Shown here piece after piece: positions 16 to 14,733 of a stretch of DNA of 37,694 nt. The stretch is taken from assembly GCA_012520375.1 (NCBI GenBank), contig JAAYOH010000058.1, forward strand, positions 1-37,694, written 5' to 3'. Below the pieces are notes generated by a model that was not told the DNA's origin, did not search any database, and worked only from the letters and a program-made list of their open reading frames with translations. The position numbers and the translations under genes were made by a program. The DNA is from Clostridiales bacterium. GTDB taxonomy: Bacteria > Bacillota > Clostridia > Christensenellales > Aristaeellaceae. Each line of letters begins with the position of its first letter. The first letter of the stretch is position 1.

Positions 16-675
16 ATGGAAAGTACGTATCGCATCGCCCGGGAAAAACTGGAACAGAGTGGAATACACATATCCGATGAAGCCTTTCGGACAGCCTTTG
101 ATGCGGAAAAAGAATATATGAGGCGCGATGCGAGGCTCCATGCGGAATATCCAGAGGAGTTGGGCCCATGTCCCCGGGTTTCTGTTCCCGAAGCCGCCTA
201 TAATCTGCTCGTGTTCGCAGGCGCCGGGGATTATGACTATGATACAGGGGAATGGGCTCCGTGGTCGGATCAGGTATATGCCTTTGAAGCAGAGGTTTTT
301 GATGTCCATTCCATGTATACATTGTTTTTGCAGGGCGTCGAGAGCATTGTGCCCGGCGCGCATTTTGAACAGGTTCAGGAGGATCTGTCGGAAATGACGG
401 ATGAATGGAAAGAGAACGAGGATCCTGCCTGTCCGCCAACCGACGGAAAACGCAGCGTTTCCTTTGTTTTCAACGGGAAGGAGTACCAGTTTACGTTTGC
501 CAGTTATCTCGATTGGTTCAATGTGGAGATGATTGCTCAATGCAACCAGCTGCTGCAGGAGAACGGGTTCCCTGGACAACTGCACTCGATCGGCAATGAC
601 CACTTTGGTCTGACGATCATCCTGTTCTACGGCAGCGAGCAGGAGGTTTCCGCACTGGAGAAAATCATTCAATGA
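16..675 (+). CDS. hypothetical acidic cytosolic protein
   Basis: Open frame of 219 codons with an ATG preceded by a GAGGGA ribosome binding site. I do not recognise the family with confidence. There is no signal peptide or membrane segment, and the protein is acidic. The N-terminal third looks helical and is rich in Glu and Arg. The C-terminal part (from about residue 143) reads like a compact alpha/beta domain, with FVFNGKEYQF followed by YLDWFN, a long helix, and GNDHFGLTIILFYG near the end. From memory, small Firmicute proteins with a similar FNGKEY/DWF/IIFY pattern exist as stand-alone hypotheticals, and some resemble immunity-type proteins; that is inference only. The gene stands alone: the next gene points towards it, and no terminator hairpin is obvious in the 45 bp between them. 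Anything upstream lies outside the window, so it could be the last gene of an operon. Confidence 0.7.
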   Translation: MESTYRIAREKLEQSGIHISDEAFRTAFDAEKEYMRRDARLHAEYPEELGPCPRVSVPEAAYNLLVFAGAGDYDYDTGEWAPWSDQVYAFEAEVFDVHSMYTLFLQGVESIVPGAHFEQVQEDLSEMTDEWKENEDPACPPTDGKRSVSFVFNGKEYQFTFASYLDWFNVEMIAQCNQLLQENGFPGQLHSIGNDHFGLTIILFYGSEQEVSALEKIIQ

Positions 676-720: not shown

Positions 721-1395
721 TCAGTCCCACCGCAGGTAATAATAGAACCAGTTCGGCAGGATCCTTTCGGTTATGACCTGTTTTTGCCCGTCCTCGCTTT
801 CCCATTCGTACATGCCGTCTCCGGTTTGCGTAAACTGAGCTTCCTCCTCAAATTCCAGGGCGAACGGAACATCCTTTTTCGAGAAATAAAATCCGGAATA
901 TGTGGAGCTGGTGACAATCCCCGTGCCGCCGCAATAGAATTTAAGTATATCCTGGTTGTATCGATACACGTTTTTCACGATTGTATCAATGCCGAGATCG
1001 TCTTCGATGAACAGCTGTTTCTTTTCGTCGCTCCAGATCATCTGGTAGGTGAGATAGGGAAAACCAGACAGATCCTCCACGTGTTCCTTCACATATTGGC
1101 ATATGTCTTCCTTTGATTGTGAATCATCGGACTGTTCAAATATAGAAGAAACGATCCGCGAACAAACGATCCTCACCGGTATAAAATGGGGAGCCCAAAG
1201 CTTTCTGAACATCTCCCTTGGCAGCGGGAAGGGAAAGTCCACTGATTCAGCGTCAAAGAGGGTAACGACCGTAGGGGGAACGCCATGGAAAGACCGTCCA
1301 TTCAGAGGATGCTGTTCTTCTTCGGCCGCTGCAAAGGTATATACCCATACCCCCAGCATGAGGATGGATACAATCGCCGCCATGATTCTTTTCAT
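721..1395 (-). CDS. hypothetical exported protein
   Basis: Frame of 224 codons on the minus strand. The start ATG has AAGGA close upstream and a GGAGGAG a little further up. Residues 1-24 form a classical Sec signal peptide: basic start MKR, a hydrophobic core, and an A-A-A cleavage region just before an acidic EEE stretch. There is no lipobox cysteine, so the product should be released or wall-associated rather than lipid anchored. The mature part is acidic and aromatic-rich near the C-terminus (WFYYYLRW). No catalytic motif or known domain was recognised. It is transcribed divergently from the ROK kinase gene and converges with the first gene. Function unknown. Confidence 0.7.
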   Translation of the reverse strand: MKRIMAAIVSILMLGVWVYTFAAAEEEQHPLNGRSFHGVPPTVVTLFDAESVDFPFPLPREMFRKLWAPHFIPVRIVCSRIVSSIFEQSDDSQSKEDICQYVKEHVEDLSGFPYLTYQMIWSDEKKQLFIEDDLGIDTIVKNVYRYNQDILKFYCGGTGIVTSSTYSGFYFSKKDVPFALEFEEEAQFTQTGDGMYEWESEDGQKQVITERILPNWFYYYLRWD

Positions 1396-1581: not shown

Positions 1582-1635
1582 GACAAAAAGAAGTGATTCG
1601 CGCTGGATTTGCGCTGGTTGAAAGGGGATGCGCCG

Positions 1636-2571
1636 TTGAAACCGTATAGCATCGGCATCGACGTGGGGGGGACCAAGGTCGCCTATGGTTTGTTCTCTCA
1701 AGATGGCAGTCTTATGGACCGCTTCCAGCATCCCTCAGACCGGAATGCGGACGGCCCGGCATTCACGGACACGATCCTGGAAACCATCCATGGGATCCTC
1801 CGGAAGAACAGTTTGTCCCTCTCTGATTTGAACGGTGTGGGCCTGTGTATGCCCTCCCACATCCTCTTTGACGAGGGGTTTGTGTATCTTACCCCGGCGC
1901 TCCCCCTGATCAGAAGCTTTGCCATGCGGGAATACCTTCAGAAACGCCTTGACGCCCGCATCATCCTGGACAACGACAGCAACGGCGCAGCCCTTGCGGA
2001 ATACCGCCGCGGCGCGGGACGGGGCTGCCGCCATATGGTGTATATCGCGATGGGTACGGGGATCGGCAGCGGCCTGATCATCGACGGCGAGCTGTTCCGG
2101 GGCAGTTATGGGTGGGCAGGCGAAAGCGGCCACATGCTGGTGACCCCGGGAGAGGGAGAACTGTGCGGCTGCGAAAACAGGGGCTGCATCATGGCCTATG
2201 CCAGCGGGCGCTTTGTGGCGAACCGCATGCAAAAAGATCTCCGATCCGGCCGCAGCAGCATATTGTCGAAAGTAGAAAACCCCGATTGCGAAGATTTGCT
2301 CAAAGCGTATCGGCAAGGGGACGCCTATGCGGACGAGATGATCTCCTCCATGGCGCATTACATCGCTATCTGTGTATACAACCTGTATCAGGTGCTCAAC
2401 ATCAACGTTTTCGTGTTCGGCGGCGGGTTGACCAACTTCGGCCCCGTACTCTTCGAGCGGATCCGAAGCGCCTTCGACGCCTTTGACCACATCGGCCTTC
2501 CGGTGGAGTTCCGGTTGGCCCAGCTGGATCAGGATTTCGGGATCATCGGCGCAGCGGAGCTGCTCCGGTAA
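1636..2571 (+). CDS. ROK-family sugar kinase
   Basis: ATP-dependent phosphorylation of a hexose-like substrate is expected for this family (glucokinase, fructokinase, NanK-like). Seen: phosphate loop DVGGTK at about residues 9-14, catalytic DND (Asp112-Asn113-Asp114), GTGIGSG, the substrate/zinc motif ExGH (Glu163-His166) and zinc cysteines 177, 179 and 184. The start is taken as the TTG at 1636 because GAAAGGGG sits 8 bp upstream; an in-frame TTG at 1609 has no ribosome binding site. The product is about 311 aa, normal for ROK kinases, and lacks the N-terminal helix-turn-helix of ROK repressors, so it is an enzyme. Odd: the usual GC(L/I)E glutamate is Met186. It ends 3 bp from the convergently transcribed activase gene. 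Context suggests it makes the phosphorylated substrate of the nearby glycyl radical enzyme. Exact substrate not determinable. Confidence 0.9.
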   Translation: MKPYSIGIDVGGTKVAYGLFSQDGSLMDRFQHPSDRNADGPAFTDTILETIHGILRKNSLSLSDLNGVGLCMPSHILFDEGFVYLTPALPLIRSFAMREYLQKRLDARIILDNDSNGAALAEYRRGAGRGCRHMVYIAMGTGIGSGLIIDGELFRGSYGWAGESGHMLVTPGEGELCGCENRGCIMAYASGRFVANRMQKDLRSGRSSILSKVENPDCEDLLKAYRQGDAYADEMISSMAHYIAICVYNLYQVLNINVFVFGGGLTNFGPVLFERIRSAFDAFDHIGLPVEFRLAQLDQDFGIIGAAELLR

Positions 2572-2574
2572 AAG

Positions 2575-3351
2575 TCAATCCGTGCGGCAGCACAAGCCTT
2601 GGGCGCGAAACAGCGCCTCGTACCCTTGCAGGTCCTCGGGATGAAGCTGTCCTACCCCTTTCATGGCATAGGGGATCTCCAGCTGCTCGTACTTTTTCTC
2701 GCCCAATTGATGAAACGGCAGCAGCTCAACTTTCTGTACGCCCATGCGGGACAAGAGGGATGCCATGTTGGCCCCATCTTCCCGGCTGTCATTGAAGCCC
2801 GGGATCACAGGGATCCGCACAACGAGCGGCATGCCCTGCTGCAGCGCTACGCATAGGTTCTTCAGGATCAGCTCATTGCCGACCCCTGTCCCCCAAATGT
2901 GCCGCTCGCTCTGCCAGTGCTTTAGATCGAATAGAAGCAGGTCCACTTGGGACAGCATCTGCCGGAAAGTATCTTCCGGGGCATGTCCCGTGGTCTCTAA
3001 TGTGCGATGGAATCCGGCTTCCCCGGCCTGACGGAGCACCTCCATGCAAAAAGCATGCTGCTGCAGCGGCTCCCCGCCGCTCAGGGTCATCCCGCCGCCG
3101 GATTCCTCGTAGAAACAGCGGTCTTTCTCCACTTCTGCCAGGACACCCTGGGGGGTATACCGCTTGCCGGACATGCTTTCTCCATCGCAGCGTTCGGCCC
3201 GTTCCCGGTTGTGGTTTTGGGATTCGGGATTGGAACACCATCGACAGCACAAAGGACAACCGCTCAAAAAGACCACCGTACGGATACCCGGTCCGTCGTT
3301 GAGGCTAAAACGCTGTATGTTGAACACCTTTCCATATACGGGTCCCTTCAT
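2575..3351 (-). CDS. glycyl radical enzyme activating enzyme (radical SAM)
   Basis: Radical SAM activase that installs the glycyl radical on a partner enzyme in the cytoplasm, using SAM and a 4Fe-4S cluster. The cluster motif CxxxCxxC is Cys32, Cys36 and Cys39. It is preceded by the typical NIQRFSLNDGPGIRT signature and followed by the SGGEP glycine-rich SAM-binding motif. The product is about 258 aa, the size of pyruvate formate-lyase activase. The ferredoxin-like insert with two extra cysteine clusters found in most activases of the YbiY/CutD/GlyDH type is missing; only one cysteine lies in that region. The start at 3351 is preferred over an ATG at 3366 because GAGGTGG precedes it with good spacing. 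It is divergent from the glycyl radical enzyme gene, its obvious partner, and has its own consensus-like promoter. Confidence 0.92.
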   Translation of the reverse strand: MKGPVYGKVFNIQRFSLNDGPGIRTVVFLSGCPLCCRWCSNPESQNHNRERAERCDGESMSGKRYTPQGVLAEVEKDRCFYEESGGGMTLSGGEPLQQHAFCMEVLRQAGEAGFHRTLETTGHAPEDTFRQMLSQVDLLLFDLKHWQSERHIWGTGVGNELILKNLCVALQQGMPLVVRIPVIPGFNDSREDGANMASLLSRMGVQKVELLPFHQLGEKKYEQLEIPYAMKGVGQLHPEDLQGYEALFRAQGLCCRTD

Positions 3352-3376
3352 GTCTCCACCTCGCATCCCCCTTGGT

Positions 3377-3497: not shown

Positions 3498-5909
3498 ATG
3501 ATGATGATGAGCCGCTTCGGGGAACTCAGCCCGCGCATGCACGGCTTTCGCGAAGACCTTTTGAATGCCAGGCCCCGGATCTGTACCGAGCGGGCCCTCC
3601 TGACCACAGAGAGTTACAAACTTCACGCAGACAAGCCTGTGGTTTTAAAGCGCGCCTACATGCTGAAAAACGTGCTGGAAAATATGAGCATCTATATCGA
3701 AGACCAAACGCTGCTCGCCGGCAATCAGGCCAGCGGCAACCGGTTTGCCCCCATATTCCCCGAGTATGCCATGGATTGGGTCATAAAAGAACTGGATACC
3801 TTTGAAAAACGGGACGGCGATGTATTCCTCATCAGCAGCGAAGCAAAAGAGCAGCTCCGCTCCATCGCTCCCTTTTGGGCACACAATACCACCAAGGACA
3901 AGGGCCTGGCAGCCATGCCGCCCCAAAGCCGGATATACTATGACCTGGGCATCATAAAAGCAGAAGGGAACATCACTTCCGGGGACGCGCACATTGCGGT
4001 AGACTATACTGCCCTGCTGAACAAGGGCCTGAAGGATTTCGAAGCGCGAACGCGGGCAGCCGAAGACCGTTTGGATCTCACGAAACCCTCCGATTTGCGC
4101 CGATACCATTTCTATCAAGCCGTGCTGATTGTGCTGAAGGCTGTTCGTGATTTTGCTTTGCGCTATGCCGCATTGGCCGAATCCATGGCGTCAAATGCCA
4201 AGGAAGGCCGCAGAGTCGAACTTCTGGAGATGGCGCGCATCCTGCGCCGTGTACCCTGGGAACCGGCAGAGAGTTTTCACGAAGCGTTGCAGTCCCTTTG
4301 GCTGGTACACCTGGTGTTGCAGATAGAGTCCAACGGGCATTCCCTGTCCTATGGACGCATGGATCAGTATTTGCAGCCTTTCTACGCCCGGGATATAGTC
4401 GCCGGCAGGGTCACACAAGGCCAGGCTTGTGAACTGATGTGCAATTTGTGGCTAAAAACCTTTACCATCAACAAGATCCGAAGTTGGAGCCATACCCAGT
4501 TCAGCGCCGGCTCCCCCCTCTACCAGAACGTCACGGTGGGAGGCCAGCACAGCGATGGCCAGGACGCCGTCAATGAGATGAGTTACCTGATCCTGCGCAG
4601 TGTGGCGCAGACCCGTCTCCCCCAGCCCAATCTGACCGTTCGCTACCATGCAAACCTGTCGGATGATTTCATGCGAGAAGCCATCGAAGTGGTCCGGCTT
4701 GGCTTTGGTATGCCCGCCTTCAACAACGACGAGATCATCATCCCTTCCTTCATTGAGAAGGGGGTAAAGCCCGAAGACGCGTACAACTACAGCGCCATCG
4801 GCTGTGTGGAAACCGCCGTGCCGGGGAAATGGGGTTACAGATGTACGGGCATGAGTTTTCTCAACTTCCCGAAATCCCTGCTGATCGCCATGAATGACGG
4901 GGTTGACCCGGTATCGGGCATTCGGCTCACCCAGGGCCTTGGCCATTTCAGGGACATGCAGGATTACGATCAATTGAAAGCTGCCTGGGACAAGATCATC
5001 ACCGAATTTGCGCGCCAGAGCGCCTTGATCGAAAATGTGTGCGACATGGTGCTGGAAAGGGACGTGCCCGATATCCTGTGTTCGGCACTCTGCGAGGATT
5101 GTATCGGCCGCGGGCTGACCCTGAAAGAGGGCGGCGCCGTTTATGATTACATCAGCGGCCTGCAGGTAGGCATCGCCAATCTGGCGGATTCCCTCGCCGC
5201 CATCAAAAAACTGGTCTTTGAGGAGAAGCGCATCAGTGCGGGAGAACTGTGGGAAGCCCTGATGAGCGATTTCTCCGGGGAACAGGGGGAAAGGATTCAG
5301 AAGATGCTGATCCACGAGGCGCCCAAGTACGGAAATGATGACGATTATGTGGATCTGCTGCTGGTGGATGCCTACGAAACTTTCATTCAGGAAAACAAGA
5401 AGTATCCCAATACCCGTTTCGGTCGCGGCCCGATCGGCGGGACGCGCTATGCCGGCACCTCCTCCATCTCTGCCAACGTGGGCCAGGGGCAGAACACCAT
5501 GGCCACGCCCGACGGGCGGCATGCCTGGGAACCCCTGTCCGAAGGCTGTTCCCCTTCCCATGCAATGGATCGGAAAGGCCCCACTGCCGTCTTCAAATCC
5601 GTAGCCAAGCTGAATACCGGGGAAATCACGGGTGGCGTCCTGCTGAACCAGAAGGTCACGCCGCAGCTGCTGGAAAAGGAGGAAAACCGCGCCAAGCTGA
5701 TCATGCTGATCCGGGCCTTCTTCAACCGCCTGCATGGCTATCATGTACAGTACAATGTGGTGTCCCGGGAGACCCTGCTGGATGCCCAGATACACCCTGA
5801 AAAACATCGGGACCTGATCGTGCGCGTGGCGGGCTACAGCGCCTTTTTCAATGTGCTCTCCCGCCAGACGCAGGACGACATCATTGCGAGGACCGAACAA
5901 AGCCTGTAA
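3498..5909 (+). CDS. glycyl radical enzyme, YbiW-like (predicted anhydrosugar-phosphate lyase)
   Basis: Oxygen-sensitive glycyl radical enzyme of 803 aa, full length for the family. Seen: C-terminal radical loop RVAGYSAFF with Gly779, and the active-site loop IGCVETAV with thiyl Cys436 and acid/base Glu438, the pattern of C-O or C-N lyases rather than pyruvate formate-lyase (which has two adjacent cysteines). By memory alignment it matches E. coli YbiW closely: GIIKAEGNITSGDAH, LQIESNGHSLSYGRMDQY, AGSPLYQNVT, PAFNNDEI and GKWGYRCTGMSF. YbiW has been reported to open the ring of 1,5-anhydroglucitol-6-phosphate, giving 1-deoxyfructose-6-phosphate. Substrate here is inferred from that similarity plus the ROK kinase and sugar importer next door. 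Four ATG codons run in tandem (3498-3509); GGAAAGG abuts the first, so 3504 or 3507 may be the true start. Not recognised nearby: the aldolase expected downstream in the pathway. Alternative: another sugar- or polyol-phosphate dehydratase. Confidence 0.93.
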   Translation: MMMMSRFGELSPRMHGFREDLLNARPRICTERALLTTESYKLHADKPVVLKRAYMLKNVLENMSIYIEDQTLLAGNQASGNRFAPIFPEYAMDWVIKELDTFEKRDGDVFLISSEAKEQLRSIAPFWAHNTTKDKGLAAMPPQSRIYYDLGIIKAEGNITSGDAHIAVDYTALLNKGLKDFEARTRAAEDRLDLTKPSDLRRYHFYQAVLIVLKAVRDFALRYAALAESMASNAKEGRRVELLEMARILRRVPWEPAESFHEALQSLWLVHLVLQIESNGHSLSYGRMDQYLQPFYARDIVAGRVTQGQACELMCNLWLKTFTINKIRSWSHTQFSAGSPLYQNVTVGGQHSDGQDAVNEMSYLILRSVAQTRLPQPNLTVRYHANLSDDFMREAIEVVRLGFGMPAFNNDEIIIPSFIEKGVKPEDAYNYSAIGCVETAVPGKWGYRCTGMSFLNFPKSLLIAMNDGVDPVSGIRLTQGLGHFRDMQDYDQLKAAWDKIITEFARQSALIENVCDMVLERDVPDILCSALCEDCIGRGLTLKEGGAVYDYISGLQVGIANLADSLAAIKKLVFEEKRISAGELWEALMSDFSGEQGERIQKMLIHEAPKYGNDDDYVDLLLVDAYETFIQENKKYPNTRFGRGPIGGTRYAGTSSISANVGQGQNTMATPDGRHAWEPLSEGCSPSHAMDRKGPTAVFKSVAKLNTGEITGGVLLNQKVTPQLLEKEENRAKLIMLIRAFFNRLHGYHVQYNVVSRETLLDAQIHPEKHRDLIVRVAGYSAFFNVLSRQTQDDIIARTEQSL

Positions 5910-5969: not shown

Positions 5970-6953
5970 TTAATCCCGCTGTGTCTTCGCGCTGATATTG
6001 CCCACCACTTTTTCCAAAGCCAGGGCAAAGATGATCAGCGCCCCCAGCGCAATCTTCTGGTAGAAGCTGGACACGTTCAGAATGCTCAGACCATTGAAAA
6101 TGGTCCCGATCAGGATGCCGCCCAGGAGGACGCCGAAGGGTTTCCCCTTGCCTCCGAAGAAGCTCGTGCCTCCGATAATGCATGCGGCGATGGCGTATGT
6201 CTCGTACCCGTCACCCGCCGTGGGCTCTGCCGCGCCTACCCGGGCGGTCATGATGATGCCCGCAATGCCCGCAAGGGTCGAGGAGAGAATATGGGCCAGC
6301 AGGGTGAACCTCTTGGTATTGATACCGGAATACCAGGCCGCCTGCTTGTTTCCCCCCAGGGCGTACATATTGCGCGCCGCGATGGTGTACTTGGTGAACC
6401 AAATCAAAATGGCCGCAATGACCAGCACGATCAGAAAGGGGATCGGGAACCCGCCAACGTACAGGGCAATGGACTTGAATCCAAGGGGCAAGCCAAAGAT
6501 CGGCTTTCCGTTGCACATCACCAGGACAATGCCCCTGAAAATGGTGTTCGTGCCCAAGGTGACCACGAAGGGATGCAGCTGGAGCAGATTGATCAAGGTG
6601 CCGTTGATGGCGCCAAGAGCCACCCCCACCAGGAGGCCTATCAGAACGGCTGCCCAGACAGGGCAGTTCACCAGCAACAGTTTTGCGCATACGGCGCCGC
6701 AAAAAGCTGCAACAGACCCCACGGACAAATCGATGCCGGCCAGAAGGATGGCAAAGAACTCGCCAAAGGCCAACACCGTATAGATCGTGCTCTGCATGCC
6801 GATCTGCTTGATGTTGTTCACCGAAAGGAAATAGTTCGGCGATGCAATCGAAAAGCCGATCAGGATGAGCAGCAAAATGCTCAGCGTACCAAACCTCTCC
6901 CAGTAGGATCCAAAGGACATCCTGCTCTTCTTTTTTGCGGCTGTGTTTACCAT
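5970..6953 (-). CDS. sugar ABC transporter permease (RbsC/AlsC type)
   Basis: Integral membrane permease of the ribose/galactose/allose ABC importer family, about 327 aa with eight to ten hydrophobic segments. Seen: the family motif LLAGIDLSVGSVAAF after the second hydrophobic segment, GTNTIFRG, and the C-terminal IGGTSFFGGKG loop that docks on the ATPase. The start is placed at ATG 6953 because AAGGAG, which overlaps the stop region of the ATPase gene, lies 8 bp upstream; a GTG at 6962 directly abuts that site. It is the last gene of the leftward binding protein-ATPase-permease operon and ends at the bidirectional terminator. Substrate specificity cannot be read from the permease; context suggests an anhydrosugar or related monosaccharide. 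Confidence 0.93.
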   Translation of the reverse strand: MVNTAAKKKSRMSFGSYWERFGTLSILLLILIGFSIASPNYFLSVNNIKQIGMQSTIYTVLAFGEFFAILLAGIDLSVGSVAAFCGAVCAKLLLVNCPVWAAVLIGLLVGVALGAINGTLINLLQLHPFVVTLGTNTIFRGIVLVMCNGKPIFGLPLGFKSIALYVGGFPIPFLIVLVIAAILIWFTKYTIAARNMYALGGNKQAAWYSGINTKRFTLLAHILSSTLAGIAGIIMTARVGAAEPTAGDGYETYAIAACIIGGTSFFGGKGKPFGVLLGGILIGTIFNGLSILNVSSFYQKIALGALIIFALALEKVVGNISAKTQRD

Positions 6954-6965
6954 TTCATTCACTCC

Positions 6966-8483
6966 TTAGTACGCTGAAACAGCGGCATATAGTATCTTTT
7001 CCTCTGTGGCTTCCTCGTTCATAAAGGTCTTCGTGATCTGGCCGTTGGAAAAAACGATGATCCGGTCGCAGACACCGAGCAATTCTGTCATGTCCGAAGA
7101 GACCATGACGACAGCCTTTCCTTCGTCCACCATGTCCCGCATGATCTGGTAGATCTCGCTTTTTGCCCCCACGTCAATCCCCTTTGTGGGTTCGTCAAAG
7201 ATGAACACATCGGAATTGACGGCCAGCCACTTTCCCACAATGACCTTTTGCTGGTTTCCACCGGATAGATTGACCGTCATCTGATCGATTCCCCAGCACT
7301 TGGTGCGCAGCTTTTCACTGTAGTGCGTCGCTTGCTCCCGCTCCTGCTTTTCGTCGGTCAATCCTGTAAAACCGCCGAACCGGGACTTCTTCAAGTTGGT
7401 GGTAACGGAGATGTTCTTCCAGATCTCAAAGTTCTGGAAAAAACCTGTTTCCCTGCGGTTCTCGGTCACAAAGGCTATGCCCTGTTTCAATGCACTGTAG
7501 GGATTTGTGATCTCAAGTTTTCTGCCATGCAGATAAACCTCCCCTTCCGAGATGGGGCTGACACCGAAAATTCCCTCCATGGCTTCACTGCGACCGGCAC
7601 CGATCAATCCACCCAGGCCCAGGATCTCTCCTTTGTACACGTCAAAACTGATGTTTCGGGCTTTTCGGTCGCGGCGCGTCAAGTTCCGAACCGAAAAGAG
7701 AACTTCGGGTTCGGCCTCAGGAGGCGTCGGCCGCAGGAAACGCTCCTGTACCTGGCGCCCCACCATCATGGGGACGAGATCTTCGACTTCGATATCGCTG
7801 ACATCCCTTGTTCCCATGTACTTTCCATCCTTCAGGACGGTTACGCGATCGCCGATCCTTTTGATCTCCTTCAGCTTGTGGGAAATATAGATGATGCCGA
7901 TACCGTCGGCTTTGAGCTGCCGGATGATATCAAAGAGATTGTCGGTTTCCTCCACAGACAGGGATGAAGTAGGCTCGTCCATGATCAGAATGCGGGCGTC
8001 GGCCGCCAGCGCTTTGGCGATCTCCACCATTTGCTTTTCCGATATGGACAACTCCTGTACCAGGGTACCTGGGCTGCGGCGGATGCCCACCTTGTCCATC
8101 AGCTCTTTCGCATGTTCGTTCATTTTCGCGTAGTCGACATGGGGGATCCCAAGGATACGCTTGGTGGGCAGTTTCCCTACATGAAGATTTTCCGCAATGG
8201 ACAGTTCGTCGATTACAGAAAGCTCCTGGTAGATGATGGCAATCTTGTTATCCTTGGACATAGCCGGTGTCAGGTGGGTGAAGTGGGTCCCTCCAATGAA
8301 CATTTCACCCTCTGTAGGATGATTGATCCCGCTCAGGATCTTCACCAGGGTCGATTTGCCTGCGCCGTTCTCCCCCAACAGCACGTGTACCTCGCCGGGG
8401 CGAAGATCGAAACTGACTTTGTCAAGGGCTACGACACCCGCAAACTTCATGGTCATATTGTGCATTTGTACCAGGTATTCCAT
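6966..8483 (-). CDS. sugar ABC transporter ATP-binding protein (RbsA/MglA type)
   Basis: Cytoplasmic ATPase with two fused nucleotide-binding domains, about 505 aa, normal for RbsA. First domain: Walker A GENGAGKST near residue 40, signature LSISEKQ, Walker B ILIMDEPTSSL. Second domain: the degenerate Walker A GLIGAGRSE that is usual for this family, signature LSGGNQQKV, Walker B FIFDEPTKGID. Only the first Walker A is canonical, as in other monosaccharide importers. Two starts are possible: ATG 8489 is only 2 bp from AGGGAG, while ATG 8483 is 8 bp away and preferred. It is separated from the upstream binding-protein gene by about 120 bp containing a hairpin, and is translationally close to the permease (12 bp). 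Confidence 0.95.
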   Translation of the reverse strand: MEYLVQMHNMTMKFAGVVALDKVSFDLRPGEVHVLLGENGAGKSTLVKILSGINHPTEGEMFIGGTHFTHLTPAMSKDNKIAIIYQELSVIDELSIAENLHVGKLPTKRILGIPHVDYAKMNEHAKELMDKVGIRRSPGTLVQELSISEKQMVEIAKALAADARILIMDEPTSSLSVEETDNLFDIIRQLKADGIGIIYISHKLKEIKRIGDRVTVLKDGKYMGTRDVSDIEVEDLVPMMVGRQVQERFLRPTPPEAEPEVLFSVRNLTRRDRKARNISFDVYKGEILGLGGLIGAGRSEAMEGIFGVSPISEGEVYLHGRKLEITNPYSALKQGIAFVTENRRETGFFQNFEIWKNISVTTNLKKSRFGGFTGLTDEKQEREQATHYSEKLRTKCWGIDQMTVNLSGGNQQKVIVGKWLAVNSDVFIFDEPTKGIDVGAKSEIYQIMRDMVDEGKAVVMVSSDMTELLGVCDRIIVFSNGQITKTFMNEEATEEKILYAAVSAY

Positions 8484-8551
8484 AGACATCGCTCCCTCTC
8501 ATCATCCCGGAGCTCCCAGCGCTGCCCCGGTTCGGGTCAATATTCAGGGAA

Positions 8552-8609: not shown

Positions 8610-9569
8610 TCAGAGATAGTCCGCCACGTTTCCGGCGTGGACCAGGAAGCAATCGATGTACTGGGTGACGCACTGCTCCACAGCAGGATCCGCCTTCCAG
8701 CCGTCCAGCACACACTGAAGCGCCCATTCGCCACAGGCAATGCCGATCCCAATGTTGTCCTGGCCGACCGTAGCAGCCAAGCCGCCGTCACGGACGGATT
8801 CCTTGGCGCCCTGAACGGCGTCGGTGCCCACAACCATGACCTGGTCTGCCTTGCCCGCATTCAGAACGGCCTCATACACGCCCAGCGCCATGGTATCGTT
8901 GGCACAGTAGAACGCCTTCAGGTCGGGGTATGTGGTCATGATGTTGGTGGCGGCGTCCATGGAAACCATGCGGTCCCAATCGCCGTTCTGTACGGCGACG
9001 AGTTCAATGCCGTCCGTTGCCTCAAAGATGGCGGTAGCACCGGCGACACGGTTGTTGGAAGTCACGTTTCCGTCCGTACCGGAGATGATCGCCACCTGGC
9101 CCTCCCCGATGGTGTCGACGATGAACGAAGCACCGGTATTCCCGACGATGATGTTGTCCGTGGTATAGTGACCGGCCATGTTCCCGCCCTCGGCGATAAC
9201 GGCCTCCAGGTCGATATTCTCGTCCACATTGACCACCACAACGCCGGCTTGCGCTGCCTTCACGGCGCCGGAAACCAGGTTGTTGGAAGACAGGGGCGCC
9301 GCGCAAATGGCGTCGTAGCCCATGTTTACCATGTTCTCCATCATTTCCAGCTGGCCGGTGAAATTGCTCTCATCATCTACACACTGCACGTCGACCTGGA
9401 CGCCTTTCTCTGCTGCCCAAGCCAAAACGCCCTCCTTCATGCTGGACCAGTACTCGTTGGATTCGGGCTTCAGGATGTAGCCGATCTTAACCTCAGAGAT
9501 CTCTTTCGCGGAAACGCCGAGCACAAGGACCATCATCAGACACAGAACGATTGCTAATACTTTCTTCAT
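8610..9569 (-). CDS. sugar ABC transporter substrate-binding protein (periplasmic-binding type I)
   Basis: Solute-binding protein of the ribose/allose family (type I periplasmic binding fold), 319 aa. Start at ATG 9569, with AAGGAG 7 bp upstream; an upstream in-frame ATG at 9623 has no such site. Residues 1-21 are a Sec signal peptide with a hydrophobic core and an AxA-like VSA cleavage site. Family features seen: IGYILKPESNEYW at the mature N-terminus, AAPLSSNN, VVVNVDENID, GTDGNVTSNNR, AFYCANDTMALG and VVGTDAVQGA. Odd: there is no lipobox cysteine after the hydrophobic core, although a Gram-positive binding protein normally needs a lipid anchor. First gene of the importer operon, with a strong promoter. 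Ligand not determined; the binding-site residues suggest a monosaccharide-like compound. Confidence 0.93.
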   Translation of the reverse strand: MKKVLAIVLCLMMVLVLGVSAKEISEVKIGYILKPESNEYWSSMKEGVLAWAAEKGVQVDVQCVDDESNFTGQLEMMENMVNMGYDAICAAPLSSNNLVSGAVKAAQAGVVVVNVDENIDLEAVIAEGGNMAGHYTTDNIIVGNTGASFIVDTIGEGQVAIISGTDGNVTSNNRVAGATAIFEATDGIELVAVQNGDWDRMVSMDAATNIMTTYPDLKAFYCANDTMALGVYEAVLNAGKADQVMVVGTDAVQGAKESVRDGGLAATVGQDNIGIGIACGEWALQCVLDGWKADPAVEQCVTQYIDCFLVHAGNVADYL

Positions 9570-9612
9570 GGGACCGCTCCTTTCAAAATATATGTATAGA
9601 TCAAGATCTTTT

Positions 9613-9667
9613 GCCGGCGCCATCCGAAATCACAGCTCTCTTTTCCCGGAATTCTTCGGGCGCCGAC
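9613..9667 (-). promoter_or_regulatory. structured 5' leader of the importer operon
   Basis: In the roughly 165-nt leader of the binding-protein mRNA, GTCGGCGCC (9667-9659) can pair with GGCGCCGGC (9621-9613), a 9-bp stem with one G-U pair closing a loop of 37 nt. It ends about 45 nt before the start codon. I do not recognise a known riboswitch class in it. It could control translation or mRNA stability. Confidence 0.35.
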
Positions 9668-9740
9668 TGGGATCCCGCTATTGACATCATCGGACAAGTG
9701 TTGGGCAAAGGTTTTCACACATAAAGTTACTCCGTATGGA

Positions 9741-9769
9741 ATTGTAACACAAAACCGATAGGCTGTCAA
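9741..9769 (-). promoter_or_regulatory. strong sigma-A promoter for the importer operon
   Basis: Minus strand TTGACA (9769-9764), exactly 17 bp, TACAAT (9746-9741). A loose inverted repeat GTTAC/GTAAC (9726-9748) overlaps the -10 box and the expected start point and could be an operator. The 396-bp gap between the binding-protein gene and cmk holds this promoter, the structured leader and the divergent cmk promoter; nothing else was recognised in it. Confidence 0.75.
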
Positions 9770-9913
9770 ACCCCCTTTCCCATCTTCTTATAACAATTTG
9801 CTATGGAACAGATTGTAAAAGCAATGTCCTCTTCTTTTCCGCTTTGGACATTTCGTCGGAAGAATGACAGAAAAATTGCTTCTTTCAATGAATCATCATT
9901 CATCCGCAATGTT

Positions 9914-9942
9914 TTGCCAAATCAGGAATAATGTGGTATACT
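9914..9942 (+). promoter_or_regulatory. sigma-A promoter for cmk operon
   Basis: TTGCCA (9914-9919), 17 bp, TATACT (9937-9942). The predicted start point near 9949 excludes the longer in-frame ATG at 9931 as a start codon. Confidence 0.7.
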
Positions 9943-9966
9943 ATCCCATCGGGTGAGGAGATTATG

Positions 9967-10656
9967 ATGAGCACAAAGCAATTGTTCTCGGTGGCGATCG
10001 ACGGGCCCTGCGGCGCGGGAAAATCCACGATCGCCAGGGCATTGGCTCGGCAGGCCGGTGCTCTGTACCTGGACACGGGGGCGATGTACCGGGCTGTGGG
10101 GTTGGCTGCCCTGCGCCAGGATATCCCCTTGTCAAACGAAGCCGCCGTCACCAGGCTGTGTGACGAGCTGCAGGTGGACGTCCGCTACGAGGCAGGGGAA
10201 CAGCACATCTATCTGGGGGACGAGGACGTGTCGGAGCAGATCCGCGCCCCGGAGATCTCCGCCGCGGCATCCCGGGTGTCCGCCTATCCCGGGGTCCGGC
10301 GGCGGCTGGTGGACATGCAGCGGGCCATTGGGCGAGGCTGTTCCATCGTCATGGACGGCCGGGACATCGGTACCAAGGTGCTGCCCGACGCCACCCTCAA
10401 GATCTACCTGCTGGCGGATCCCGCAGTCCGGGCCCGGCGCAGGTATCTGGAGTTGCAACAAAAAGGGCTGCCGGATACCTATGAAATGGTCTACCAGGCG
10501 CTTTTGGCCAGGGATCACGACGACATGACCCGCGCAGCCTCTCCCCTTGCGCGGGCAGAGGACGCCATTGAACTGGACACCACGCATCTGAACCTGGAAG
10601 AAAGCGTGTCCCGGGCGCTGGAACTACTGTCCCACAGACTGGAGGGCCGCATATGA
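9967..10656 (+). CDS. cmk: cytidylate kinase
   Basis: Phosphorylates CMP and dCMP with ATP in pyrimidine nucleotide metabolism. Seen: P-loop GPCGAGKST at residues 13-21, the CMP-binding DTGAMYRA segment, and DGRDIGT about a third in from the N-terminus; length 229 aa is normal. The start is ATG 9967 (or the adjacent 9964) because GAGGAG lies 6 bp upstream. It shares an ATGA overlap with plsC, so the two are translationally coupled. The order cmk-plsC-ispH/S1 is common in Clostridia. GC content rises at this gene relative to the sequence on its left. Confidence 0.96.
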   Translation: MSTKQLFSVAIDGPCGAGKSTIARALARQAGALYLDTGAMYRAVGLAALRQDIPLSNEAAVTRLCDELQVDVRYEAGEQHIYLGDEDVSEQIRAPEISAAASRVSAYPGVRRRLVDMQRAIGRGCSIVMDGRDIGTKVLPDATLKIYLLADPAVRARRRYLELQQKGLPDTYEMVYQALLARDHDDMTRAASPLARAEDAIELDTTHLNLEESVSRALELLSHRLEGRI

Positions 10657-11237
10657 AAGCGGAAAAACGCTTCGCCATCGCAAGAAAGCTGGTGCGCTTC
10701 CTGATCTGCCCCCTTTGCCCCATCCGTTTTACGGGCACGGAGAACCTGCCCCAGGAAGGGCCGGTCATCCTCTGCGCCAACCATGAATCCCTGCTGGACC
10801 CCATTGCCATCGGTTACGCACTCCGCCGCCCCGTCAGCTACATGGCCAAGAAAGAGCTGTTCAAGGTACCCCTTCTTGGCTCACTGCTTCGGAGCATGTG
10901 CGCCCTCCCGGTGGATCGGGGCGCCGGGGACATGGCCGCGATACGGGCGTCCCTGCAGGCGCTGAAGGAAGGCATGGCCTTCGGTATCTTCCCCCAGGGC
11001 ACCCGTTCTTTCAAGCGACGGCTTCCTTTTCAAAGCGGCGTGTCCGTCATCGCCCTGCGCTCCGGTGCCCCGGTGGTGCCGGTGCTGGTGGGTTCCCGTG
11101 CCCGGCTGTTCAGGCCCCTTCGGCTGGTCTTCGGCGTTCCGGTGGATCTGGCCGACTTCGCCGGGCCCACCACCAAGGAGAAACTGGAACAGGCTACCCG
11201 CCGCATTGAGGCGGCTGTGTTCTCCCTGCGCCCCTGA
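10653..11237 (+). CDS. plsC: 1-acyl-sn-glycerol-3-phosphate acyltransferase
   Basis: Membrane-associated acyltransferase that converts lysophosphatidic acid to phosphatidic acid in phospholipid synthesis. Seen: the catalytic HX4D motif NHESLLDP (His44-Asp49) and the third motif FPQGTRS (residues 113-119); about 194 aa, at the short end of the family. The third motif normally reads FPEGTRS, so Gln115 replaces the usual glutamate. Start ATG overlaps the cmk stop codon (ATGA). Only one moderately hydrophobic N-terminal stretch is visible. The downstream gap of about 110 bp before ispH/S1 has no terminator or promoter that I could recognise, so all three genes are probably cotranscribed. Confidence 0.9.
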   Translation: MKAEKRFAIARKLVRFLICPLCPIRFTGTENLPQEGPVILCANHESLLDPIAIGYALRRPVSYMAKKELFKVPLLGSLLRSMCALPVDRGAGDMAAIRASLQALKEGMAFGIFPQGTRSFKRRLPFQSGVSVIALRSGAPVVPVLVGSRARLFRPLRLVFGVPVDLADFAGPTTKEKLEQATRRIEAAVFSLRP

Positions 11238-11348
11238 TTTTTCTGTTAAATGTGCGATTTTGGCCTCTCCTTGCAGGAATACCCAAGAGGAAGGCGAATA
11301 AATATACGAGTCTGCGAAATTGGGTGAAGTGGGCGGAAGGTGTTTTCC

Positions 11349-13715
11349 TTGATTCGAGTGGCCGAAAGCGCCGGCTTTTGTTACGGGGTGCGGCGCGCCG
11401 TGGAAATCGCCGAAAGCCTGAATGAGGGGGTAACCTTGGGACCCCTGATTCATAATCCCGTCTATGTGGCGGGGCTGGCGAAGCGGGGCGTCAAGCCCGT
11501 TTCCCAGGTTTCGCAGGTGCTGCCGGGGCAGCATGTGGTCATCCGCTCCCATGGGGTCGGGCTGGCAGAGCACCAGGCCCTTCGGGAAAAGGGTGCCCAC
11601 GTCGTGGACGCCACGTGCCCCTTTGTCCAGCGCATTGCGCTCATGGCCCGGGAAGCCGGGGAGCGGGGCATCCCCCTGATCGTGGTGGGCGACGCAACCC
11701 ACCCCGAGGTGGTGGGCGTGCTGGGTTGGAGCATGGGCATGGGGCGCTGTGTGATGAATCCCCGGGAAGCCGGGGAGCTGCCTCACATGGAGCGGGCCGT
11801 CGTGGTCTCCCAGACCACCTTGGACGAGGCGCTGTTCGATGCGGTGTGCGAGGCCCTGAGGGAACGCATCCGGCATATCGAGGTGCACCATACCATCTGT
11901 CCCGCTACCAGGCAGCGGCAGGAAGAGGCAATACGCCTCGCCGAGTGGGCCGATCTGATGATCGTCGTCGGAGGGAGAAACAGCGCGAACTCCCGCAAGC
12001 TGTACGAGTTGTGCAGCGCGCTGTGCCCGCGAACTTACTTTATCGAATCTGCGGCGGAGCTGCAAACCGACTGGCTGCGTCCGCATGATCGAATAGGGAT
12101 GACAGCCGGTGCATCCACACCGGTCTGTACATTTAAGGAGGTTGTGACACGAATGAACGACATCGAGAGACAGGAACAGGTTAGCGAGATCGTAGCCGAT
12201 CACGCAGAGGCGATGACGCCGGAAGACTACTTCATGGCGAGCGTCGACAAGACGATGGTCCAGCTGAGACCCGGACATACGGTGACCGGCACCGTGCTGC
12301 AGATCAAGGATGATGAGGTCTCAGTGAACGTTGGCTACAAAATGGACGGTCTGATCAAAAAGGCGGACCTCTCCTCGACCGATGTCAAAGTTGGAGATGA
12401 GATCGAAGTCGAAGTCGTGAAGGTCAACGACGGTGAGGGCAACGTCCTGCTCTCCCAGCGCAACATCGTCAACAGGAAGAACTGGGAAGAGATCGTGGCC
12501 AAATACGAAGCCGGCGAGTTCGTCACGGGTACCGGCAAGCAGGCTGTCAAGGGTGGCCTCATCGCCACCGTTCTGGGCATCCGCACCTTCGTCCCCGCTT
12601 CCCATCTGGCCCAGCACTACGTTGAGAAGATCAGCGACTTCGTAGACCAGGAGATGACCCTCAAGATCATTGAGATAGACAAAGCCAAAAAGCGCATCGT
12701 GGCCTCCCGGAAAGAGGTCCTCAGGGCAGAAGAAGCCGAGCGCAAGGAGAAGGTCTGGGAAACCCTGGAAGTAGGTGAGGTGCGGAATGGCATCGTGCGT
12801 CGGCTCACCGATTTTGGCGCCTTTGTGGACATCGGCGGCGTTGACGGCCTGGTGCATGTGACCGATCTGGCCTGGTATCGCATCAAGCATCCCAGCGATA
12901 TCGTGCATATCAAGCAGGAGATCCCCGTAAAGATCATGTCTCTCGATCCCGAAAGGGGCCGCATCTCCCTGTCTTACAAGCAGACCCAGCCCCGTCCCTG
13001 GGATACGGCGGATGAGAAATATATCGTGGGTTCCGTGGTAGAGGGCAAGGTCGTTCGCATCACCACCTTCGGTGCCTTCGTGGAACTGGAGCCCGGTCTG
13101 GACGGCTTGGTGCACATTTCCCAGTGTGCCCTCACCCGCATCGCCAGAGTGGAAGACGCGGTGAACGTAGGGGATATCATTCGGGTGAAGGTGCTGGATG
13201 TGAACAGCAAGGCCAACCGCATCTCCCTCTCCATCCGTGCCGTTCTGGAAGACGAAGCTCTTCTGTACACGGGAGAGGATGTGGCCGAGGTCTACGCCAT
13301 CGAGGGCGCCGAGCCCATGCCGGCATACGAGCCCGTTCCGGAAGAAGAGCCTATCCTGGAGGTAGAGGAAGAAACCGCTCCGGAAGATGAACCTGCCGCA
13401 GTGGAAGGACCTGTAGCGGAGGAAGAGACCCCTGAGGAAGAACCTGCCGCAGTGGAAGAAACCGCTGTGGAAGAAGAGCCCGCCGCAGTGGAAGAAACTG
13501 CTGTAGAAGAAGAGCCCGCCGCAGTTGAAGAAACTGCTGTGGAAGAAGAGCCCGCCGTAGTGGAAGAGCCTGCCGCAGAGGAAGAGCCTGCCGCAGTGGA
13601 AGAGCCCGCCGCAGAGGAAGAGCCTGCCGCAGTGGAAGAGCCTGTCGCAGTGGAAGAGCCTGTAGCGGAGGAAGAAACCGCTTCTGAGGAAGAAGAAACC
13701 TCTGTGGAGGAATAA
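11349..13715 (+). CDS. ispH: fused HMBPP reductase (IspH) and ribosomal protein S1-like protein
   Basis: Bifunctional fusion known from Clostridia, about 788 aa. Residues 1 to about 275 are IspH, the 4Fe-4S enzyme making IPP and DMAPP in the last step of the MEP pathway. Its three cluster cysteines are in GFCYGV, DATCPF and ICPATRQ, with the HPE, NSANSRKL and AGASTP motifs also present. From about residue 300 come four S1 RNA-binding domains (near 304, 386, 472 and 557); the last two carry the DFGAF/TFGAFV and GLVH signatures. From about 650 an acidic low-complexity tail follows, including a tandem 12-residue repeat. The start chosen is TTG 11349, 8 bp after GGAAGG; GTG 11340 overlaps that site. 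The S1 part probably acts in translation initiation or RNA binding. Ends before a hairpin shared with a convergent gene. Confidence 0.95.
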   Translation: MIRVAESAGFCYGVRRAVEIAESLNEGVTLGPLIHNPVYVAGLAKRGVKPVSQVSQVLPGQHVVIRSHGVGLAEHQALREKGAHVVDATCPFVQRIALMAREAGERGIPLIVVGDATHPEVVGVLGWSMGMGRCVMNPREAGELPHMERAVVVSQTTLDEALFDAVCEALRERIRHIEVHHTICPATRQRQEEAIRLAEWADLMIVVGGRNSANSRKLYELCSALCPRTYFIESAAELQTDWLRPHDRIGMTAGASTPVCTFKEVVTRMNDIERQEQVSEIVADHAEAMTPEDYFMASVDKTMVQLRPGHTVTGTVLQIKDDEVSVNVGYKMDGLIKKADLSSTDVKVGDEIEVEVVKVNDGEGNVLLSQRNIVNRKNWEEIVAKYEAGEFVTGTGKQAVKGGLIATVLGIRTFVPASHLAQHYVEKISDFVDQEMTLKIIEIDKAKKRIVASRKEVLRAEEAERKEKVWETLEVGEVRNGIVRRLTDFGAFVDIGGVDGLVHVTDLAWYRIKHPSDIVHIKQEIPVKIMSLDPERGRISLSYKQTQPRPWDTADEKYIVGSVVEGKVVRITTFGAFVELEPGLDGLVHISQCALTRIARVEDAVNVGDIIRVKVLDVNSKANRISLSIRAVLEDEALLYTGEDVAEVYAIEGAEPMPAYEPVPEEEPILEVEEETAPEDEPAAVEGPVAEEETPEEEPAAVEETAVEEEPAAVEETAVEEEPAAVEETAVEEEPAVVEEPAAEEEPAAVEEPAAEEEPAAVEEPVAVEEPVAEEETASEEEETSVEE
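13434..13667 (+). repeat. tandem 36-bp coding repeat, acidic tail of IspH-S1
   Basis: About 6.5 copies of a 36-bp unit encoding EEEPAAVEETAV or close variants, in frame, with a half unit near the 3' end. The first three copies are identical at protein level; later copies have EEPAA or EEPVA. Flanking sequence on both sides is similarly acidic but less regular. Confidence 0.85.
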
Positions 13716-13738: not shown

Positions 13739-13775
13739 ACCGGCTGTCCCGGGGTGTTCCCCCGCGGCAGCCGGT
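13739..13775. terminator. hairpin between convergent ispH/S1 and PfkB kinase genes
   Basis: ACCGGCTG pairs with CAGCCGGT, with a further GC-rich inner stem around a TGTT loop. The T-tract is poor on both sides, so termination efficiency is uncertain, but position and stability suit a shared bidirectional terminator. Confidence 0.6.
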
Positions 13776-13797
13776 GCATTATTTGGGGGTTCGCCAT

Positions 13798-14733
13798 TCA
13801 GTGAGCAGCCAGGAAATCTTCCAGTTCGCGCCTGTCCGGAGAGCCCTCCATAGGCCCCTGCTTGCCGACGGACAGGGCGCCGGCCCCGTTGGCAAAGCGC
13901 GCGCAGTCCCTCAGGTTCTTCCCCTCGCACAGGGCCACCAGAAAAGCGCCGCAAAAAATGTCTCCCGCCCCCGTGGGATCCACCTCGGTAACGGGAAAGC
14001 CAGGGACATCCATGACCTGGTCCCCCGCGTACACGCAGCACCCCTTTTCCCCGTTCTTCAAGACGACGATCTTGCCCTGCGCCGCCCATTTGCGGCACCC
14101 CTCATCGTCGGTGTCCGTGTCGTTGAACATCATGGCCTCCCCCTTGCTTGGGAAGACGATGGAGGCACGATCCAGCACGGGCTTGCACAATTCCCTGGTC
14201 TTTTCCACCCCCAGGGCTTCCGGGCGGATGTTGGGATCGAAACACACTTTGGTGTCCTCCGGCAGTTCCTCCATCATCCGGTGGATCGCCCGGGCCGCCC
14301 CCGGGCACACGGACATGGCAAAGCCCGTCACGTGAAGCCACCTGGCCCCCGTGATTTTTTCGATGTGCATATCCCGCTCATCCATGTCCCCGCAAGCCGC
14401 GTCGTGTACGTGATACAGGAAACTGCGGCTCCCGTCCCCGTAGTAGCACACAAAGGCTACCCCGGTGGAGGCACGGCTGCATACCCGCACCATGGAGCAG
14501 TCCGCGCCGCTCTCCCGGAGGCGCCGGGTGATGCAGCAGCCGAAGGGGTCATCCCCCACGACGCCGATCATGGCGCACCTGGCCCCCAGCTTCGCCGCGC
14601 CGTTCAGCATGATGCCGGAGTCGCCGCTGGGGTAAGGGCCGGTGAAGTCCGCCGGCCTGTCCAGGGGCTTGTCCAGTTCCTTGCGCATGACCTCGCACAG
14701 CAGGGCGCCGATGGAAACGATATCATACCCCAT
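13798..14733 (-). CDS. PfkB-family carbohydrate kinase
   Basis: Ribokinase-like (PfkB) sugar or nucleoside kinase of about 311 aa. Seen: N-terminal VSIGALLCEVM strand-turn, GGIMLNGA-like sugar-binding region in the form SGDSGIMLNGAA, and the C-terminal signature DPTGAGDIFCGAF containing the GAGD anion hole and catalytic Asp. It phosphorylates a sugar hydroxyl with ATP; the substrate cannot be named (candidates: ribose, fructose, 2-keto-3-deoxygluconate, or a nucleoside). ATG 14733 is preferred over 14739 because AAGGAG is 8 bp away from the former and only 2 bp from the latter. It follows a Dabb-domain gene by less than 25 bp, so the two form an operon; its 3' end faces ispH/S1. Confidence 0.9.
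   Translation of the reverse strand: MGYDIVSIGALLCEVMRKELDKPLDRPADFTGPYPSGDSGIMLNGAAKLGARCAMIGVVGDDPFGCCITRRLRESGADCSMVRVCSRASTGVAFVCYYGDGSRSFLYHVHDAACGDMDERDMHIEKITGARWLHVTGFAMSVCPGAARAIHRMMEELPEDTKVCFDPNIRPEALGVEKTRELCKPVLDRASIVFPSKGEAMMFNDTDTDDEGCRKWAAQGKIVVLKNGEKGCCVYAGDQVMDVPGFPVTEVDPTGAGDIFCGAFLVALCEGKNLRDCARFANGAGALSVGKQGPMEGSPDRRELEDFLAAH

Follow-up and report, generated by a model that had tools for sequence, protein, structure and literature searches.

Which sugar is phosphorylated by a ROK-family kinase that has lost the acidic residue with which its relatives contact the anomeric hydroxyl? The question is raised by the gene at 1636..2571 on the forward strand of a 37,694-nucleotide contig from a Clostridiales bacterium (JAAYOH010000058.1); this whole stretch is called the window here, and it also holds a gene for a glycyl radical enzyme (GRE) of the YbiW type. 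YbiW and PflD are described as cleaving the 6-phosphates of 1,5-anhydroglucitol and 1,5-anhydromannitol, respectively, to 1-deoxyfructose-6-phosphate, and in the bacterial route described there the hexitol is phosphorylated by the PTS (PMC12441222). 1,5-Anhydroglucitol, a sugar analogue from the diet, serves as a blood marker of glycaemic control and gives rise to the toxic metabolite that underlies two inherited neutropenias (PMC12441222). Judged from its sequence and its neighbours, the window gene probably encodes an ATP-dependent 1,5-anhydrohexitol 6-kinase, most likely for 1,5-anhydroglucitol, which would feed a YbiW-type lyase, the sugar entering by an ABC importer and a kinase and not by a PTS.

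The kinase and its active site

Translation of 1636-2571 (+) gave a protein of 311 amino acids containing GESGHMLVTPGEGELCGCENRGCIMAYASGR. The TTG start at 1636 is plausible because AAAGGGG, a probable ribosome-binding site, was read 8 nt upstream (1621..1627, +). Pfam PF00480 placed the protein in the ROK family (E 2.3e-56, 191.9 bits, cut-off 22.9, computed from the upstream TTG at 1609). No NCBIfam model cut-off was reached: the glucokinase model TIGR00744 gave 191.5 bits (cut-off 260.35) and the D-allose kinase model NF007251 gave 95.6 bits (cut-off 253). A ROK repressor was ruled out, as no HTH model was matched in Pfam, the ROK match starts at the N terminus, the length is 311 residues and D114 is present. 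An AlphaFold2 model (alignment of 44 sequences; mean pLDDT 95.8, pTM 0.91) matched best, over the whole length, the ROK glucokinases 2qm1 (Z 36.8, rmsd 2.8 over 310) and 3vgk (Z 35.8, rmsd 2.4 over 300) together with other ROK proteins.

The DxGxT motif (D9-G11-T13), the catalytic D114, E163 and H166 are present and were invariant or nearly so across the alignments, and the DND is kept (N113, D114). The ExGH motif (E163-H166; 2122..2133, +) and the zinc-cysteine motif C177-x-C179-x4-C184 (2164..2187, +) are intact, and the predicted zinc site (H166, C177, C179, C184) is complete. The zinc motif reads C177-G-C179-E-N-R-G-C184-I-M186-A-Y-A-S-G: the sugar-site acid that ends the canonical CxCGxxGCx(E/D) of ROK hexose kinases is missing, and the codon at 2191..2193 (+) encodes Met186. 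This Met aligned gap-free with the Glu of GC(L/I/W/F)E in relatives and with the acid of GCID in Plesiomonas shigelloides NagK (PsNagK; D187); in the alignment of E. coli NagK with PsNagK, E154 and H157 of the latter fell on ExGH and D187 fell in the Met186 column. Translation and alignments thus bore out the sequence-only reading of this DNA, which had put Met186 at the GC(L/I)E position with ExGH and the zinc cysteines intact. A replacement acid nearby was ruled out, columns 184-192 being free of Glu and Asp in all 21 relatives that carry Met at this position (Met-ROKs). One Met-ROK, that of genome G011 (L039:14114-15028), has DKD for DND and so lacks the Asn beside the catalytic Asp.

The lost glutamate had further been said to contact the sugar near the C1 and C2 hydroxyls. 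Published work upholds the first half of this statement; for the C2 half no source was found. In PsNagK the 1'-OH is engaged by D187, and with D187N KM for GlcNAc was 430 instead of 98 µM and kcat 110 instead of 202 per s (PMC10031466); in MurK the C1 hydroxyl is recognised by the acid D141 (PMC10465942); and in human GNE sugar binding is assigned to five residues, among them E588 of the same motif (PMC2742894).

Compared with the ROK glucokinases of Streptomyces griseus (GlkA, 3vgk) and Enterococcus faecalis (2qm1), the window kinase has the same full-length fold, DxGxT, ND, ExGH and zinc cysteines, but it is 28-30% identical in the structural alignments, has Met for the Glu of GCxE and scores below the glucokinase model cut-off; Ser74, found in most Met-ROKs, is Gly in nearly all Glu-bearing rows. 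With NagK (PsNagK 7p7i; E. coli NagK, 28% identical) it has the order of motifs in common, but the substrate of NagK is a reducing sugar, and the enzyme keeps an acid at the C1 position (Asp187 in PsNagK, Glu in E. coli). Lmo2764 (4htl) is another ROK kinase without the acid, with Asn172 at the position of Met186 (PMC5458393). It would take C1-blocked sugars if its name is right; it is listed as 'Beta-glucoside kinase' in the PDB sequence list and as 'putative N-acetylmannosamine kinase' in the entry title. Lmo2764 is 21-23% identical to the window kinase and differs from it in having Tyr155 for the ExGH histidine and Asn, not Met, in place of the acid (PMC5458393).

A substrate without a C1 hydroxyl, such as a 1,5-anhydrohexitol, had been proposed not to need the acid, in keeping with the locus, and the role of NagK D187, the YbiW-type GRE nearby and the linkage described below all argue for that view. 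The wording may understate the case. On 1,5-anhydroglucitol the efficiency of human low-Km hexokinases is 10,000-30,000-fold below that on glucose, and that of the ADP-dependent glucokinase about 20-fold below (PMC12441222). Hexokinase sites can therefore depend strongly on O1, and an anhydro-sugar kinase would gain from a C1 pocket that does not reward it; since the low-Km enzymes are so poor on 1,5-anhydroglucitol, the Met may turn preference away from glucose, which would amount to a gain of specificity.

Conservation and phylogeny of the substitution

Among 136 distinct ROK proteins collected, residue 186 was Glu in 107, Met in 21, Gln in five, His in two and Asn in one; matches shorter than about 230 residues and identical sequences were left out of this count, and many of the Glu rows are actinobacterial near-copies. 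A first survey had found Met in all 15 relatives of at least 43.6% identity. The 20 genomes and plasmids with a Met-ROK include Clostridia, a spirochaete, Rouxiella and a Chloroflexota plasmid; a plasmid search returned, in the best 10 of 1519 records, ROK relatives of 34.6-35.5% identity only. Outside column 186, where the separation of 21 Met from 51 thinned Glu rows is perfect by construction because the groups were defined on that column, position 74 was Ser in 18 of the 21 and Gly in 50 of the 51.

A ROK tree was built by a quick method, with column 186 excluded, from 73 rows: every one of the 29 sequences without Glu, 14 drawn at random from the Glu sequences of genome_contigs, and 30 further Glu sequences. 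Nineteen Met sequences and the one with Asn formed a single clade (SH-aLRT 99), whose sister is a group of six (Gln three, His two, Glu one). The Met-ROKs of L156 and L154 branched outside both, within a set of 28 rows at SH-aLRT 91, and the Gln sequences of L145 and L147 stood apart. A local or chance substitution was ruled out by this distribution, with Met in 21 of the 136 ROKs, in one clade and two near branches. The tree requires three changes between Glu and the other residues. It does not settle their course; a likely one has Glu change to Met once, with the Met afterwards replaced in the sister group, and Glu change to Gln independently.

The genome of the window also encodes an intact Glu-bearing ROK (L001, motif GCWERYASA), whose 379-residue open frame contains no internal TAG. 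This rules out the window kinase as the only glucokinase-like ROK of the cell, and the kinase therefore need not serve glucose.

Neighbouring genes and linkage to glycyl radical enzymes

Downstream of the kinase lie a radical-SAM GRE-activating protein (2575..3366, -; TIGR02494, 272 bits, cut-off 174.35) and the YbiW-type GRE (3498..5909, +), a putative 1,5-anhydrohexitol-6-phosphate lyase. The best PDB matches of the GRE were E. coli YbiW (8yjn, 8id7; 879 bits), with PflD at 491. A 65-row GRE tree placed it in a clade of 26 rows (SH-aLRT 100) that includes E. coli YbiW, PflD lying in another clade; its identity to E. coli YbiW by tblastn is only about 52%. The genes for a sugar ABC importer follow on the reverse strand, namely an AlsC-like permease (5970..6962; D-allose permease model NF007252, 369.8 bits, cut-off 396), an AlsA-like ATPase (6966..8489; NF007253, 698.5 bits, cut-off 772) and an AlsB-like periplasmic sugar-binding protein (8610..9623; NF007254, 288.4 bits, cut-off 335; PDB 8wl5, 1gub).

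All 20 genomes and plasmids that hold the 21 Met-ROKs (Christensenella hongkongensis has two) hold a YbiW-like GRE, at an identity of at least 51% in 17 genomes, 56% and 73% in two, and 44% in the Chloroflexota plasmid. The GRE gene lay in the fetched stretch of the Met-ROK itself in 18 of the 21 cases; 16 of the 18 enzymes belong to the 26-row YbiW clade, and those of L146 and L154 lie outside it, in neighbouring branches. In L038 and L039 the ROK gene is near a contig end and the GRE gene near the end of another short contig, and in L057 a PflD-like GRE lies near the Met-ROK, with the YbiW-like GRE on another contig. By comparison, no GRE match (E < 1e-30) was found in the 3-21 kb stretches around 72 Glu-ROK genes (genome_contigs, L064-L136 without L074); L001-L037, with flanks of about 1.5 kb, were kept outside this comparison. 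A ROK beside GREs of other clades (L169) keeps the Glu.

In surveys of whole genomes the GRE was present in nine of 391 genomes of the class, the window's included, and in ten of 398 of a phylum sample, in which six genomes had a ROK at E <= 1e-55. Those ROKs of the phylum sample with at least 48% identity (window, G224, G618) all carry Met and all come from the ten GRE genomes; those at 37-38% (G513, G569, G670) all carry Glu, and none comes from the ten. Because relatives with the same substitution come from GRE-bearing genomes, the window kinase probably feeds the breakdown of 1,5-anhydroglucitol.

The most informative arrangement is that of Rouxiella aceris (L060), where about 6.5 kb hold an FsaA-like gene (83% identical to that of E. 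coli), YbiW (87.5% to E. coli), the activase, a Met-ROK and a GldA-like gene (48%), the Met-ROK lying between YbiW and the GldA-like gene with FsaA nearby. The Met-ROK loci L051, L053 and L059 likewise have an FsaA-like gene adjoining the GRE. At L053:8673-11160 the GRE match runs through two overlapping frames (8673-9140 and 9097-11160), perhaps by a frameshift or an assembly error.

Gln-ROKs of a separate branch occur in L145 (11619-12566) and L147 (12359-13312), each after a GRE 47-48% identical to that of the window and with a PflD-like GRE in the same stretch; in the GRE tree the GREs of these two loci share a branch with that of L154. Both Gln-ROKs have Tyr for N113, an AlsBAC-like importer is encoded in the same stretch, and in L145 a ribulose-phosphate 3-epimerase gene follows the kinase gene.

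ROK genes without a nearby GRE, and GREs without a nearby ROK gene

In the sister group of the Met clade (L042-L046, L063; Gln, His or Glu) no GRE was found in the fetched stretches; a GH42 beta-galactosidase gene lies by the ROK in L044 and metallophosphatase genes lie by it in L046 and L063. Since this GRE-less group carries Gln and His, loss of the acid is not diagnostic of an anhydrohexitol substrate by itself. In one of its members (L045) the catalytic Asp is replaced by Asn. The ROK with Asn at the C1 position (L074:11231-12178, the same as L173:15299-16246) is a second ROK, beside GH4, aldose-epimerase and HAD genes and about 11 kb from the GRE of its contig (L173), with a Met-ROK in the same cluster.

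Conversely, a ROK gene was absent from the fetched stretch of ten GREs of the 26-row YbiW clade, so the kinase is not obligatory. They are L171 and L172 (Met-ROK on another contig), L054 (contig ends in the GRE), E. coli, L052, L138, L139, L140, L152 and L153; some of these stretches are short, that of E. coli being a few kb. A Pfam scan of ten ORFs around the ROK-less GREs of L138 and L139 found no PTS gene. On an Enterococcus gilvus plasmid, mannose-family PTS genes were seen about 8 kb from a GRE.

Alternative substrates

Were the window kinase a standard ROK glucokinase or hexokinase that simply tolerates the Met, with a GRE nearby by coincidence, its intact general catalytic residues and the glucokinases as its best solved relatives (28-29% identity) would be accounted for. 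Such a reading is improbable, as the Met is found in 20 genomes or plasmids and every one of them also holds a YbiW-like GRE, the genome of the window has its intact Glu-bearing ROK, and the acid contacts the 1'-OH in NagK, where its change costs affinity (PMC10031466). Given the AlsBAC-like transporter, a D-allose kinase of an allose operon was also considered, and the transporter genes do score best against the AlsB, AlsA and AlsC models, yet below their cut-offs. The kinase itself reached 95.6 of the 253 bits set for allose kinases; E. coli AlsK, 23% identical to it, keeps the Glu (GCLETNCSG); and in L041, L146 and L154 a separate AlsK-like ROK, also with Glu, stands in the same cluster beside the Met-ROK, that of L041 passing the allose-kinase cut-off. 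D-Allose has a C1 hydroxyl, and the importer of L049, L155, L161 and L173 is only distantly related (ATPase 38-41%). On the model score, the Glu of AlsK and the separate AlsK-like ROKs this candidate was ruled out, and it is hardly credible.

A third possibility, unlikely though of some weight, is another sugar without a free anomeric hydroxyl, for example a beta-glucoside, or an anhydrohexitol of manno or allo configuration. Lmo2764 (4htl), the 'beta-glucoside kinase' of the PDB sequence list, has Asn172 in place of the acid (PMC5458393), but no glycoside hydrolase was found among the ten window ORFs scanned with Pfam in the first 11 kb. The manno form is suggested by the Met-ROKs of L057 and L050, which are also by PflD-like GREs, PflD being the enzyme that uses 1,5-anhydromannitol-6-phosphate (PMC12441222); the GRE of the window, however, is of the YbiW and not of the PflD type. 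For the allo form there are the allulose-6-phosphate 3-epimerase genes of L041, L062 and L146, which passed the cut-off of that family and are accompanied in their stretches by RpiB-like and AlsK-like genes. The epimerase of L154 scored below every cut-off and that of L145 passed ribulose-phosphate 3-epimerase cut-offs only; the L154 plasmid (CP069395.1) is annotated with alsK, rpiB, alsB and alsC. Thus L041, L062, L146 and L154 combine genes of the allose type (importer, AlsK-like kinase, RpiB-like protein, epimerase) with a Met-ROK, a GRE and an activase, and because of the allose-like importer and the epimerase genes an allo-configured anhydrohexitol is possible for some Met-ROKs.

Proposed pathway

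For the window kinase, 1,5-anhydroglucitol remains the likeliest substrate. The ABC importer would take in the unphosphorylated sugar, and the ROK kinase would phosphorylate O6 with ATP to give the 6-phosphate, Asp114 serving as the base that activates O6 and Asn113, Glu163 and His166 presumably binding the remaining ring hydroxyls, as their counterparts do in other ROK kinases. With Met186 in place of the anomeric-hydroxyl clamp, the hydrogen bond that favours glucose would be removed and a nonpolar contact offered to the bare C1 methylene. The radical-SAM activase, whose gene lies between those of the kinase and the GRE, would switch on the GRE, and the latter would open the ring of the 6-phosphate to yield 1-deoxyfructose-6-phosphate.

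Anhydroglycolysis in E. coli has a YbiW-clade GRE and an activase in common with the window locus, but there the hexitol is phosphorylated by the PTS (PMC12441222), where an ABC importer and a ROK kinase are proposed here. A further difference is the aldolase: an FsaA-type enzyme (TIGR00875) gave no match in the genome of the window (95% complete), and of the 22 genomes searched, seven, this one included, had none and four more had matches below 40 bits only. FsaA/FsaB and GldA reportedly catalyse the later steps in E. coli (attributed to Ma et al., JACS 2024). Close to the Met-ROK of L057, whose genome has only weak FsaA-family matches, there is a DHDPS-family gene (13774-14700) that might encode a 1-deoxyfructose-6-phosphate aldolase. 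A literature search for a published ROK kinase acting on 1,5-anhydroglucitol found none; Ma et al. 2024 and other papers outside its reach may describe one.

It can be suggested, more tentatively than the role of the window gene, that anaerobes possess a dedicated family of anhydrohexitol 6-kinases, derived from ROK hexokinases by removal of the clamp (with Met in place of Glu and, in a separate event, with Gln beside a YbiW-like/PflD-like pair). Such a family would provide a PTS-free entry through ABC importers, and the residue together with the GRE would mark organisms that consume 1,5-anhydrohexitols, the manno and allo forms perhaps among them. If the proposed function is correct, an ATP-dependent kinase preferring the anhydro sugar would explain how ABC-importing anaerobes enter anhydroglycolysis; it would help to mark 1,5-anhydroglucitol use in genomes and might serve as an enzymatic tool for this compound. 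The window kinase would then be a natural experiment in how recognition of the anomeric hydroxyl is lost from a hexokinase site.

Other genes in the window

Upstream of the kinase, the ORFs at 16-675 (+) and 721-1395 (-) had no Pfam or NCBIfam match. The ORF at 11340-13715 (+) encodes a LytB domain fused to S1 domains, and the rest of the scanned window holds mostly housekeeping genes of the Mfd, GAPDH, FeoAB, RimM and TrmD types.
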